NCBI GenBank assembly: GCA_029213065.1
Contig: JARGPH010000023.1
Span: forward strand, 1-64,000
Reading direction: 5' to 3'
Length of the DNA stretch: 64,000 nt
Source: Verrucomicrobiales bacterium
GTDB taxonomy: Bacteria > Verrucomicrobiota > Verrucomicrobiia > Verrucomicrobiales > DEV007
Shown: positions 51,121 through 55,215 of the stretch, in pieces
How positions within the stretch are numbered: position 1 is the stretch's first letter
Layout: every line of letters starts with the position of its first letter
Position numbers and translations under genes: made by a program
The notes under the pieces: generated by a model
Told to the model about the DNA's origin: nothing
The model's input: only the letters and a program-made list of their open reading frames with translations
Database searches by the model: none

Positions 51121-52464
51121 TTAGAGTTCCAATCGCTTACCGGCAATGTGGTAGCACTGGAATACAGCCGTATCAGGTGCTTTGGATGGAAAAGCGATTT
51201 TCACCTCGCTTGAGCTTCCTGTGGCGACAAAGAAGAAGAGGGTTCCGCTCACGGGGGTGAGATTTTCCCCTTCATACTGGACGATAATCTGTTCGGGTGT
51301 TTCTTCTTCGGCGAGTTGGCCGACTGGCCAGCTCACCGCGTAGCGTTTCCCTTTCTCTGTCGGAAAGCGCAGGCTCAAGGCCCGTTCGTTAATCGGTGCG
51401 ACGGTCGCTGAGATCTTCTCCGGGGCCGGTGCAATCCAGAAGCGGTTCCCCGGTGGTTTTGGATTGTACCCGATAATTCGGCCGGGAATTATCGCAAAAT
51501 GGTTGTCCTCGATTTTGCGGGCTGCGACCTGAGCGGCTGCGAACGGGCTGCGACCGTCGAATCGAATCAGAATGTCAGCCTTGTCGTTCACGCCGATGTA
51601 TTCAAGCTCGAGGGTGTAGTCGTCGGCAGAGCCCTGAATCTCGTCGAGACCGCTCATCGCGAAGCGGATTCCCGCAACGTCGTCTGCGCCGAGAGCGCGT
51701 CTCACCTGACCGGGCTTCAAGCTGCCGCCGGTGACCATGAGTGCTTCAATATTCTCCAATCGGTATTCGTCGGAGACCGCAACGATTCGATCCCCCATGG
51801 CGGAAAAGGTGGAGCCGGAGGGAAGGTCGGCGGGCTCGAGGCTGTAGGTAGTGGAGTCGTAGACGCCGTCTTCCGGAAGGGTGAAGGGATTGTTGTCGGC
51901 CCGTTTGAAGTAGCTCAGGTTTTCGTCATCCCCCCGTATGTCATCGCGGGTCCCGCCGACGCCGTCGGGCCCCGGATCGAGATCGAATTTCCCGTTCGGA
52001 CCGGGAGTGGAGGCGGTGTATTTTTTTCCTCTCGTCGGGGTTCCCGGCGGAGGCGAGAGGGCGGGGTGCGCAAGGCCGAGGCAATGCCCCATTTCATGGA
52101 CCATGGTTCCGAAGATATCCGTGCCGCCCTGCGCGGGGACTTCGATGGATGGGCTCAGTGAGCTGGATGCGACGAGGAGATCATTCCAGATTTGGACTGC
52201 CTGCGTCAGCGTGAAATTCAGATCCGGCTCGAGATCTTCAAAGTCCGAGTGCAGCGCGACGGTGATTTTCAGGGTGCTTTCTTTTCCGGTGTAGCCGGCG
52301 GGATGGACGATGGTATCCGCCGGTTGTCGCTTTCCGGCCATGACGTAAGTGAAGGCAAATGCCGTTACCGGTTGCAGGAAAAGTGCGATGATCAGGCTGA
52401 CGGCTGTGAAGAGTTGAGTTCGCTTCTGATAATCAGGCAGGGGAAGGTCTTCGGGGCGCGTCAT
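51121..52464 (-). CDS. Metzincin-type zinc metalloprotease-like secreted protein
   Basis: 447 residues from ATG 52464, giving MTRPEDLPLPDYQKRTQLFTAV... with hydrophobic segment AVSLIIALFLQPVTAFAFTYV as signal or anchor. Zinc motif H123-E-M-G-H127-C-L-G-L-A-H133, the HExxHxxGxxH of matrixin-like M10 enzymes; a Met-turn candidate is FSAMGD. Asp/Gly-rich NGKFDLDPGPDGVGGTRDD is a likely Ca-binding loop. The C-terminal ~150 residues are beta-rich with no catalytic motif. The gene is convergent with the small lipoprotein at 50858 and separated by 23 bases. Substrate unknown. Confidence 0.85.
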   Translation of the reverse strand: MTRPEDLPLPDYQKRTQLFTAVSLIIALFLQPVTAFAFTYVMAGKRQPADTIVHPAGYTGKESTLKITVALHSDFEDLEPDLNFTLTQAVQIWNDLLVASSSLSPSIEVPAQGGTDIFGTMVHEMGHCLGLAHPALSPPPGTPTRGKKYTASTPGPNGKFDLDPGPDGVGGTRDDIRGDDENLSYFKRADNNPFTLPEDGVYDSTTYSLEPADLPSGSTFSAMGDRIVAVSDEYRLENIEALMVTGGSLKPGQVRRALGADDVAGIRFAMSGLDEIQGSADDYTLELEYIGVNDKADILIRFDGRSPFAAAQVAARKIEDNHFAIIPGRIIGYNPKPPGNRFWIAPAPEKISATVAPINERALSLRFPTEKGKRYAVSWPVGQLAEEETPEQIIVQYEGENLTPVSGTLFFFVATGSSSEVKIAFPSKAPDTAVFQCYHIAGKRLEL

Positions 52465-52571
52465 GAGTGATTTCGGGTTGGTGGCGGATTGTGTGTTTGT
52501 GATAGTGAAGGGGAAGAAAGGGCTTCGTTCAATCTTCGAAATCTTTAAATAGGAAGCGATCAACCGGGTAC

Positions 52572-52603
52572 AAAAAAACGACACCCGGTAAGGAGTGTCG
52601 TTT
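52572..52603 (-). terminator. Intrinsic terminator for the RRM protein gene
   Basis: AAACGACAC (52576-52584) pairs with GTGTCGTTT (52595-52603), a perfect 9-bp stem. The A-run 52572-52578 is the U-tract on the minus strand. It lies 47 bases beyond the RRM gene stop. Confidence 0.85.
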
Positions 52604-52650: not shown

Positions 52651-52893
52651 CTAGCGTGGCTGTGCTTCGTTCACCTTGAGGGTGCGACCTCCGAAATCCT
52701 TGCCGTGGATGGCCTCAATCGCTGAGTTCATCGCCTCGTTGGAATCCATCGTTACGAATGCAAATCCGCGGACACGTCCTGTGTCACGATCGGTCGGCAT
52801 GTGCACATCAGTCACCTGACCGTGCTCGCTGAAGAGGGTTTCGAGTTCTTGTTTAGTCGTGTCGAACGACAGGTTACCTACGTACATTTTCAT
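52651..52893 (-). CDS. RNA-binding protein with a single RRM domain
   Basis: 80 residues from ATG 52893. RNP2 is MYVGNLSF at the N-terminus and RNP1 is RGFAFVTM at about residues 41-48; conserved [13 protein letters not shown] ends the fold. Such small RRM proteins in bacteria bind single-stranded RNA and are often cold-induced. The gene has a ~120-base leader containing a terminator-like hairpin (52942-52970), and a strong terminator follows. This makes cis-regulation of its own mRNA plausible. It is on the same strand as the sugar isomerase-like gene upstream, from which it is separated by ~275 bases. Confidence 0.92.
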
Positions 52894-53168
52894 AATAATC
52901 AATCGGCTCAGGCAAAGCGTTTCTTCGAGAACGTGTTCCTCAAAAAAGGGTTTTCGGAGAGCGTCCGAAACATAAGAGACGGGCTGGCAATCTTAAGACC
53001 TGTTTGTTGCCAAGCTTTGAACCACCGTAGTTATCGGCTTCTTTAGACGGAATAGCGAATCCTATTTCGATTGATTTGCGGCGAGGGCTTTTGCGGTATT
53101 GGCCGCAAAGAGGCGCAAATCCCGCAAAAACACGGGCTGCGAAATCGCTTTCAGCACTGAAAACTGAA
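52894..53168 (-). promoter_or_regulatory. Structured leader of the RRM gene with a possible attenuator
   Basis: On the minus strand the leader holds the hairpin TTTCGGA-CGCTC-TCCGAAA (52952-52970) followed after three bases by TTTTTT (52942-52947). This is the shape of an intrinsic terminator placed ~50 bases before the ATG. Further up, TGGCAA and TTGCCA (52985-52990 / 53007-53012) can pair, and TTTGCGG/CCGCAAA (53090-53109) may belong to the end of the isomerase transcript. No gene is seen here. Confidence 0.5.
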
Positions 53169-53990
53169 TCAAACTCTCCCCTCGACTTCCCGCATGTAGC
53201 TGAGGCTGCTTTCGCAGATGTGCTCAATGCCGGGTTTGTAGTCGAAGACTTCAACGCTGACCCAGTCCTGATAGTCAATCTCCTTGAGGGCAGCGAAGAT
53301 GGGATCGAATTCGATCTCGCCCATGCCGGGACCGAGAAGGTTGGCGTCGTTCGCGTGAAAGTGGGCGACCCAGTCTTTGCTTTCGCGGATGATCTGAGCG
53401 AACGGCCTCTCTTCACTGGACATCGCTTTGACGTCGAGGTGGAGGCGGCAGTTCGGTGAGTCCACCATTTGCGCGAGTTCGATGCCGCTGGCTGCGGTGT
53501 TGAGAAAATCACCTTCTCCGGGACCGAGAGGTTCGAGGGCGAGGGTTACTCCGCAATCTTCGAGGACCGGCATCGCGGAGCGAATCGCTTCGGCGGCAAA
53601 GGCCATGCCCTGCTCGTGCGAGATCCCCGGGAGGAGATTTCGCTGCTGCGGTGAACCGAGGACCATGATGGATCCGTCGAGATCCCGGCAGAGACGGGCG
53701 AGTTCGGCGAGGTATTCGCCGGTGGATTTGCGAACGGCGTCGTCGGGTGTGGTGAGGTAGTAGCCTTCGGTCTTGGCGAGAAGCCAGTGAAGTCCCACGC
53801 ACTCAAGGCCGGCGTCTTTAATCTGCTGTTTGACGGTCGTCCTCTGTTCCGCGCTGACGTCGCGGGCATCGGAAGCCATCGTGAAAGGCGCGATCTCGAT
53901 GCCGGTGTATCCGACTTCGCGGGCATACTGAAATGCCTTTTCGAAAGGCCAGTCCTGAAATGTCTCGTTGCAGATGGCGTATTTCATCAT
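53169..53990 (-). CDS. Sugar phosphate isomerase/epimerase-type TIM-barrel protein
   Basis: 273 residues. Matches the xylose-isomerase-like TIM-barrel/AP-endonuclease-2 family: MKYAICNETFQDWPFEKAFQ, YTGIEIAPFTM with a metal-ligand Glu, VGLHWLLAKTEGYYL, VTLALEPLGPGEGDFLNT, LHLDVKAMS, HFHANDANLLGPGMGEIEF and WVSVEVFDYKPG. These form the metal-binding residues of the family. Members isomerise or epimerise sugars and cyclitols. It is not in a larger pathway cluster here, so the substrate is open. Downstream lies the long leader of the RRM gene. Confidence 0.9.
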   Translation of the reverse strand: MMKYAICNETFQDWPFEKAFQYAREVGYTGIEIAPFTMASDARDVSAEQRTTVKQQIKDAGLECVGLHWLLAKTEGYYLTTPDDAVRKSTGEYLAELARLCRDLDGSIMVLGSPQQRNLLPGISHEQGMAFAAEAIRSAMPVLEDCGVTLALEPLGPGEGDFLNTAASGIELAQMVDSPNCRLHLDVKAMSSEERPFAQIIRESKDWVAHFHANDANLLGPGMGEIEFDPIFAALKEIDYQDWVSVEVFDYKPGIEHICESSLSYMREVEGRV

Positions 53991-54018: not shown

Positions 54019-55215
54019 TTAGCGGCGCTTACGACCCGGTGGGCGTTTGCGACGAAGCGGTGCGGCAGGACTGTCGTCGAGGAGCGCTGTGTAGTTGTAG
54101 TCAAAGCCCTCGAGCTTGCGACGCTCGATCTTCTGTTCGACGAAGTGCTCAACCGCTGCGGCGTTTTCGAGTTCGTCGGCGGTGAGGATCGTGAAAGCGT
54201 CACCTTCCTGCTGGGCACGACCGGTTCGGCCGATACGGTGAACGTAATCCTCAGGGTTTTCAGGGACCCGGTAGTTGATGACGTGGGTGACGCCTGAGAC
54301 ATCCAGTCCACGGGCGGCGATGTCGGTTGCGACGATGATGTTGAAGGTGCCGTCGCGGAATCCCTGGAGCGCTTTGGTTCGGTCGCTTTGTTTGATGTCC
54401 GAGTGCAGGGCGACCGGGTTGGTTCCGTCGATGTCCTTGAGGCGGGCGAGGAGCTGGTCGGCTTCTTTCTTCGTCCGCGTGAAAATCATGATGCTCTCGA
54501 ATTTGGTTTTGTCGACGAGAGCGAGGATGAGGTCGTCGCGCTGATCCATGCCCACGGGGTAGAAGGCGTGGCTCACGGTTTCAGCCGGTGAACGGCGCCC
54601 CCCCACTTCGATGGAGATAGGATCGTTGAGTGCCCACTGTGCGAGCGTCTGGATCGCGGCAGGCATCGTCGCGGAGAAAAAGAGCGTCTGGCGTCCTTTC
54701 GGGCACTGATCGATGATCTTCTTCACGTCGGGAAGGAATCCCATGTCGAGCATGCGATCGACTTCGTCGAGAACGAGATACTTCAGTTCGCTGAGATCGA
54801 GGTTGCCCTTTTCGAGATGATCTAAAAGGCGTCCGGGAGTGGCGAGAATAACGTCCGGTTTCGTTTCAAGGGCTTCAATCTGGTGGCCGTATCCGACACC
54901 GCCGTGAATGAGAACCACGTTCATTGGCTTGTAGTAGCCGAACACGTTCATCTGATCTTCGACCTGCGCGGCAAGCTCACGGGTGGGCTCGAGGACGAGC
55001 ACCTGTGGTTTTGTCGAGGGTCCCAGATTGCTGACGATGGGAAGAGAGAATGCGGCTGTTTTACCGGTTCCGGTCTGAGAAGCGCCGATGATATCGCGGC
55101 CGTTCAGGGCTTCGGGAATGGCCTGAGCCTGAATGGGAGTGGGTTCTTCGTATCCTGCACGGGTGACCGCGCGGAGAACCGGGCCTGATAGACCTAAATC
55201 TGCAAATGATGGCAT
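54019..55215 (-). CDS. DEAD-box-type ATP-dependent RNA helicase
   Basis: 398 residues. Helicase motifs in order: Q motif GYEEPTPIQAQAIP, motif I ASQTGTGKTAAF, Ia PTRELAAQ, Ib TPGRLLDHL, II VLDEVDRM, III FSATMP, V ARGLDV and VI HRIGRTGRA. Motif II reads D-E-V-D and not D-E-A-D. The C-terminus is short and basic (RRKRPPGRKRR). This is the RhlE-like group that remodels RNA in ribosome assembly or decay. It is 29 bases upstream of the isomerase-like gene on the same strand. The unusual DEVD leaves the ATPase site intact as far as can be judged. Confidence 0.95.
   Translation of the reverse strand: MPSFADLGLSGPVLRAVTRAGYEEPTPIQAQAIPEALNGRDIIGASQTGTGKTAAFSLPIVSNLGPSTKPQVLVLEPTRELAAQVEDQMNVFGYYKPMNVVLIHGGVGYGHQIEALETKPDVILATPGRLLDHLEKGNLDLSELKYLVLDEVDRMLDMGFLPDVKKIIDQCPKGRQTLFFSATMPAAIQTLAQWALNDPISIEVGGRRSPAETVSHAFYPVGMDQRDDLILALVDKTKFESIMIFTRTKKEADQLLARLKDIDGTNPVALHSDIKQSDRTKALQGFRDGTFNIIVATDIAARGLDVSGVTHVINYRVPENPEDYVHRIGRTGRAQQEGDAFTILTADELENAAAVEHFVEQKIERRKLEGFDYNYTALLDDSPAAPLRRKRPPGRKRR

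Follow-up and report, generated by a model that had tools for sequence, protein, structure and literature searches.

A conserved structured RNA leader restricted to RRM protein genes across Verrucomicrobiota

The RRM gene and its leader

The window analyzed here (the whole stretch of 64,000 nucleotides, positions 1 to 64,000 of contig JARGPH010000023.1 from the Verrucomicrobiales assembly GCA_029213065.1) carries on its minus strand a gene for an 80-aa protein (52651-52893, start ATGAAAATG, stop TAG, ATG at 52893-52891) that comprises little beyond a single RNA-binding domain (RRM_1, Pfam PF00076, E 9.4e-23); an earlier sequence-only reading of this locus had already called it an RRM gene. Upstream of it on the same strand are a gene for a xylose-isomerase-like TIM-barrel protein (53169-53990) and one for a DEAD-box RNA helicase (54019-55215), the latter of which could have RNA-related control in common with the RRM gene. 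An ORF located downstream (51121-52584, minus strand) features HEMGHCLGLAHP, a zinc-protease-like motif, and Pfam gives no match to it at E 0.001. Elsewhere in the same genome (locus L002, contig C69), another short RRM gene encodes a protein whose RRM domain is 49% identical to that of the window protein and whose tail is Gly/Arg-rich; the leader models described below give no match at this locus.

The region preceding the RRM gene of the window is matched end to end by covariance models of a structured leader (60.2 bits with model R1, 41.5 bits with R2 and 46.3 bits with R3, the latter at E 5.3e-10 for the whole genome), and no other site of that genome is matched at the E thresholds applied. 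The sequence-only reading had confined its proposal, a possible transcription attenuator, to a 71-nt segment (52942-53012); the conserved leader extends well beyond that segment, and its parts are collected in Table 1.

Table 1. Features of the leader region upstream of the RRM gene in the window (P1, P2, P3, P4 and PA are helices discussed in the text)
Feature	Positions	Strand	Remarks
Structured leader of the RRM gene	52904-53025	-	Covariance-model match, end to end
P1 5' arm TGGTTC, outer helix	53019-53024	-	Partner 52904-52909; arm-swap test
P1 3' arm GAGCCG	52904-52909	-	10 nt upstream of the ATG
TGGCAA, P2 5' arm (upstream pairing of the earlier reading)	53007-53012	-	Partner TTGCCA
TTGCCA, P2 3' arm	52985-52990	-	Homologous segment is the 5' arm of PA in relatives
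P3, hairpin TTTCGGA-CGCTC-TCCGAAA of the earlier reading	52952-52970	-	Perfect in the window alone; competes with PA
PA remnant, AGC/GCT and CCG/CGG possible	52961-52987	-	Degenerate in the window
11-bp hairpin TTTTTTGAGGA-ACACG-TTCTCGAAGAA, in place of P4	52921-52947	-	-8.8 kcal/mol, z -2.4
T6 run, supposed terminator tail of the earlier reading	52942-52947	-	5' strand of the 11-bp hairpin
Candidate promoter TTCGCT, 18 nt, GATAAC	53030-53059	-	Read by eye; just 5' of P1; weak for the window

Distribution of the leader and its gene specificity

Comparison of the upstream regions of RRM genes in relatives revealed a common leader of ~120 nt. A covariance model built from 27 of these leaders (R1), which ends before the start codon and includes no coding sequence, gave matches in 88 of the 387 Verrucomicrobiales genomes searched, between one and three per genome; an RRM gene was the next gene downstream in 84 of 91 matches (the misses being cut contigs or matches with E >= 5e-4), and in nearly all R1 matches its start lay 4-22 nt past the end of the model. 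The second model, R2, traced the element across the class and into other classes, with an RRM gene downstream of 48 of its 57 matches and exceptions that were either weak or located at contig ends. The third model, R3, expanded this coverage to 188 of 384 genomes and 105 of 171 genera of the class, and its application to a phylum-wide sample yielded matches in 67 of 387 genomes, 12 of which belong to other classes of Verrucomicrobiota.

The specificity of R3 was checked on 57 matches, strong as well as weak, none of which had been used for model building; all 56 distinct matches among them, down to E 2e-5, are directly followed by an RRM gene. Among the R1, R2 and R3 matches examined, those at genes other than RRM genes do not rise clearly above noise. 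A search of 26 genomes for both the leader and the RRM gene separated the clear leader matches (E <= 3e-8), all of them next to short RRM genes, from noise, which sets in at E 0.003; genomes with two or three such genes contain two or three copies of the leader. The same co-occurrence is observed within the genus of the window, where two genomes with the leader have a copy of the RRM protein at 74% identity, and seven genomes without the leader also have no close copy of this protein (best identity 45-51%). Other RRM paralogs and some RRM-bearing genomes (e.g., group f2 g19) are devoid of the element; therefore, an RRM protein can do without it. Overall, the leader is well supported as a conserved structured element restricted to RRM genes, and the lack of leader conservation that the earlier reading had named as counter-evidence is clearly not observed.

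Closely related RRM genes in other Verrucomicrobiales (loci L025, L026, L029, L032, L033, L037-L039, L043, L044, L046 and L051) have a second, different type of leader in the ~110 nt upstream of the ATG. It is characterized by a helix (GGYTCGTGC/GCACGAGCC and variants) that closes a hairpin and ends ~9 nt before the ATG, and by a conserved GTGGTA farther upstream of this helix; R1 gives no match to this type at E up to 1.

Consensus structure, covariation and the window copy

The consensus structure of the leader consists of an outer helix, P1, enclosing a long and strongly conserved hairpin, PA, followed by AAA and by a second hairpin, P4 (CCCG/CGGG). The arms of P1 are GGTTC/GAACC or variants of these; the helix closes the leader as a whole and ends at a median distance of 11 nt from the ATG (IQR 10-13, 125 leaders). 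PA is composed of an outer stem of ~7-9 pairs, a GG/G internal loop and an inner stem (UGAGU/AUUCG and variants), and the unpaired letters between PA and P4 are conserved. The outer stem of PA emerged when all 5-bp helices were scanned without bias: the segment around TTGCCA was found to pair downstream with TGGTGAT, besides its pairing with the upstream TGGCAA; in single-sequence folding of the PA segment the PA hairpin was obtained for most of the non-redundant leaders folded. The interior of the first structure (P1, P2, P3 and P4), on which R1 and R2 were based, proved partly wrong, and R3 was rebuilt because the helix scan favored PA, which pairs better, and because P3 showed no covariation.

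Several lines of comparative evidence support this consensus. Over 94 non-redundant leaders, 86.7% of the cells pair, and 230 two-sided changes are observed vs. 59.9 in shuffles. Using alignments that had been fitted to P1, the 56 leaders outside R3 building gave a covariation score of 0.380 (vs. 0.166 +/- 0.009 for shuffled and <= 0.081 for slid controls), and the six highest-ranking among 7021 column pairs under a tree-aware null were four pairs of P1, one of PA and one of P4. With 50 leaders aligned by MAFFT alone, the tree-aware scan yielded no significant structural pair; thus, the covariation claims rest on structure-guided alignments and their controls. Because P1 pairs belonged to the model behind the tree-aware alignment, P1 was also tested by swapping arms. 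RNAduplex and longest-helix swap tests across all families were uninformative, since the conserved arms GGTTC/GAACC can pair with whatever partner they are given and distant families differ in register. In an anchored swap of the 3' arms among close relatives, 31 non-redundant leaders gave 231 Watson-Crick pairs vs. 202.2 +/- 6.9 (z 4.2), a value reached in none of 10000 permutations. In distant families an alignment-free test gave no confirmation of P1.

The covariation search in other RRM leaders, which the sequence-only reading had suggested, thus brought P1, PA and P4 to the top of the ranking and nothing for P3, the hairpin at the center of that reading (p 0.1-0.6 in relatives under the tree-aware null). 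Both pairings of that reading, P2 (TGGCAA/TTGCCA) and P3, compete with PA. P2 can form: when 94 relatives are aligned so as to fit it, about 72% of its cells are paired. Under the tree-aware null, one weak pair of P2 is significant and the rest are not.

The window copy is an outlier of the element, with an intact P1, a degenerate PA, and P4 replaced by a long hairpin of 11 bp. The inner stem of PA (CCGATTC/GAATTGG) is intact in the nearest relative (L005/L134). Equivalents of the 11-bp hairpin with changed pairs are recognizable in four relatives read by eye (L005, L006, L007 and L015), where they fold with z from -1.6 to -3.3 and contain the counterpart of the T-run in their 5' strand.

Regulatory interpretation and relation to known systems

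A promoter-like pair of boxes is present in 17 of 93 leaders (vs. 4.1 +/- 2.0 in shuffles) and mostly ends 3-9 nt before the motif. Since such boxes are found just upstream above chance, the element probably represents nearly the whole 5' untranslated region. No excess of Shine-Dalgarno sequences is observed in the leaders (7 of 125) or, for Shine-Dalgarno-like letters, in window ORFs of at least 200 aa (6 of 50, 12%, vs. a background of 12.2%), which suggests that initiation in this organism is mainly Shine-Dalgarno-independent and rules out sequestration of such a site as the mechanism. Occlusion of the ribosome is not obvious either, because the start codon is mostly unpaired in predicted folds (0.5-0.7) and P1 spans 5-10 bp.

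The sequence-only reading had proposed a transcription attenuator, in which a terminator-shaped hairpin with its T-run ends transcription unless the upstream pairing prevents it. Its description of the letters proved accurate: TTTCGGA (52970-52964), CGCTC (52963-52959) and TCCGAAA (52958-52952) are all present on the minus strand, TGGCAA and TTGCCA lie where it had placed them, and the T-run said to lie about 50 bases before the start codon ends 48 nt from the ATG. P3 alone folds at -6.4 kcal/mol (z -2.9 vs. shuffles) and is followed by A (52951), CCC (52950-52948) and the six T residues, an order of elements that speaks for the proposal. The terminator shape itself did not withstand a closer look, as the stem includes three G-C pairs, the four intervening bases ACCC are unlike the usual terminator arrangement, and the U-run is predicted to be paired within the covarying 11-bp hairpin. 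Taken as a whole, the 71-nt stretch has no folding advantage over its shuffles (z -0.13), and a pattern scan for terminator-like sites nearby gave a chance-level count (9 vs. 7.0 +/- 2.5 in shuffles). A T-run of at least five occurs in the 3' half of 7 of 125 leaders and at this particular site in the window alone, none of the other 124 leaders having it; the nearest relative, L005, whose protein is 99% identical, has CCCTCTTCGAGG in its place. The perfect TTTCGGA/TCCGAAA hairpin is likewise absent even from the closest relative, and the homologous segment in relatives folds as the longer, conserved PA. P2 and PA do compete for one segment, the PA side being no terminator. An intrinsic terminator was rejected (a stem that is not G+C-rich, a U-run that is neither immediate nor predicted to be single-stranded, no conservation in orthologous leaders), and attenuation is the most improbable of the mechanisms considered. 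The leader of the RRM gene is not a transcription terminator, and the hairpin noticed earlier is a local peculiarity of the window, even though it pointed to the right place.

Among the remaining alternatives, an RNA thermosensor that refolds with temperature in the manner of cspA-type leaders, so that more RRM protein is made in the cold, appears rather unlikely, although many relatives can form either P2 or PA, two pairings that share a segment and exclude each other, and small RRM proteins of cyanobacteria are cold-induced. Its two folds would be P2 with the earlier hairpin vs. PA; however, P2 alone covaries weakly, modeled folding of the window leader at three temperatures from 37 to 10 C produced a gradual loss of access at -20 to -1 and no switch, and among the matches examined the element was found at RRM genes and at no other cold-shock genes. 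A riboswitch, or a leader controlled by an sRNA, sensing a metabolite, an ion or another RNA or protein rather than the RRM protein, would account for the conserved unpaired letters around a multi-helix junction and for the alternative pairings, which are riboswitch features. Ligand-sensing elements usually control other genes as well, and the lack of any clear match at a non-RRM gene makes this alternative still less probable. Hardly any weight is given to translation-coupled control via a minimal upstream ORF (a start, one codon and a stop): 59 of 125 leaders contain the pattern RTG-NNN-TGA (e.g., ATG ATT TGA or GTG ATC TGA) within the 3' strand of PA, but more than half of the leaders do without it and keep the pairing, so that its most plausible origin is as a by-product of the stem, which is conserved.

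The leader probably controls the amount of RRM protein made, and the mechanism that we consider likeliest, with somewhat better than even chances, is autogenous control, with the RRM protein acting through the cis-acting leader to restrain its own production post-transcriptionally. The RRM protein is proposed as the regulator because the element is confined to RRM genes, among them several paralogs in one genome, a restriction that fits binding by the RRM protein itself. We infer this binding, the direction of the effect and its translational level from gene specificity and from the precedent of RbpB described below. In the proposed mechanism, transcription would start with the 5' arm of P1 or a little upstream of it, and P1 would close a multi-hairpin RNA and end ~11 nt before the ATG, within the landing site of the ribosome. 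When abundant, the RRM protein would bind its own leader at conserved letters that are unpaired or lie in the internal loop, and hold P1 and the core folded; the folded leader may then slow ribosome loading or alter the decay of the mRNA.

This type of control has parallels in other systems. In ribosomal-protein leaders, the regulator is the encoded protein itself; the autogenous L1 and S15 leaders are likewise folded, located by the start codon and each confined to the gene for a single RNA-binding protein, whereas here the presumed partner is an RRM protein. The cspA-type cold-shock leaders are also long folded leaders of a small RNA-binding protein gene, yet they have no Rfam sequence relation to the Verrucomicrobiota leader, which was not found at cold-shock genes among the matches examined. 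We know of one Rfam family named for RRM genes, Chlorobi-RRM. This motif (RF01697) was described as a likely structured and likely cis-regulatory RNA (Weinberg et al., 2010; PMC2864571) and represents a comparable candidate from another phylum, but its sequence and model differ from those of the leader described here; at its gathering score, the RF01697 model gave no match in 37 genomes of relatives, in the window or in the analyzed loci. In the control genome of Bacteroides ihuae a Chlorobi-RRM match below the cut-off was noticed, a possible lead to RRM leaders of Bacteroidota. RbpB of Bacteroides thetaiotaomicron, likewise a single-RRM protein encoded in a different phylum, crosslinks to its own mRNA, which has an RbpB binding site, and this was noted as potential autoregulation (PMC11697453).

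Rfam 15 provided no credible match for the window or for 28 loci at gathering as well as permissive thresholds, and a search of the literature (mostly freely accessible papers) found no description of the element. The leader is an undescribed phylum-wide cis-acting RNA element of Verrucomicrobiota, of the kind of a gene-specific structured leader, and it adds a structured RNA family to a phylum poorly covered by Rfam. This case also illustrates that an attenuator call made on a single sequence can prove to be a different kind of element upon comparison. To our knowledge, little has been established outside Bacteroidota and cyanobacteria about what bacterial RRM proteins do and what they target; a leader found only before RRM genes is a candidate ligand, and it provides a defined RNA for testing RRM binding and control. 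More tentatively, and with the odds rather against it, the leader may act as a two-state switch (P2 and the earlier hairpin vs. PA) that the RRM protein reads to set its own level, within a new phylum-wide Verrucomicrobiota RNA family dedicated to single-RRM genes. If true, this would imply, together with Chlorobi-RRM and rbpB, that bacterial RRM proteins have repeatedly evolved structured autogenous leaders.
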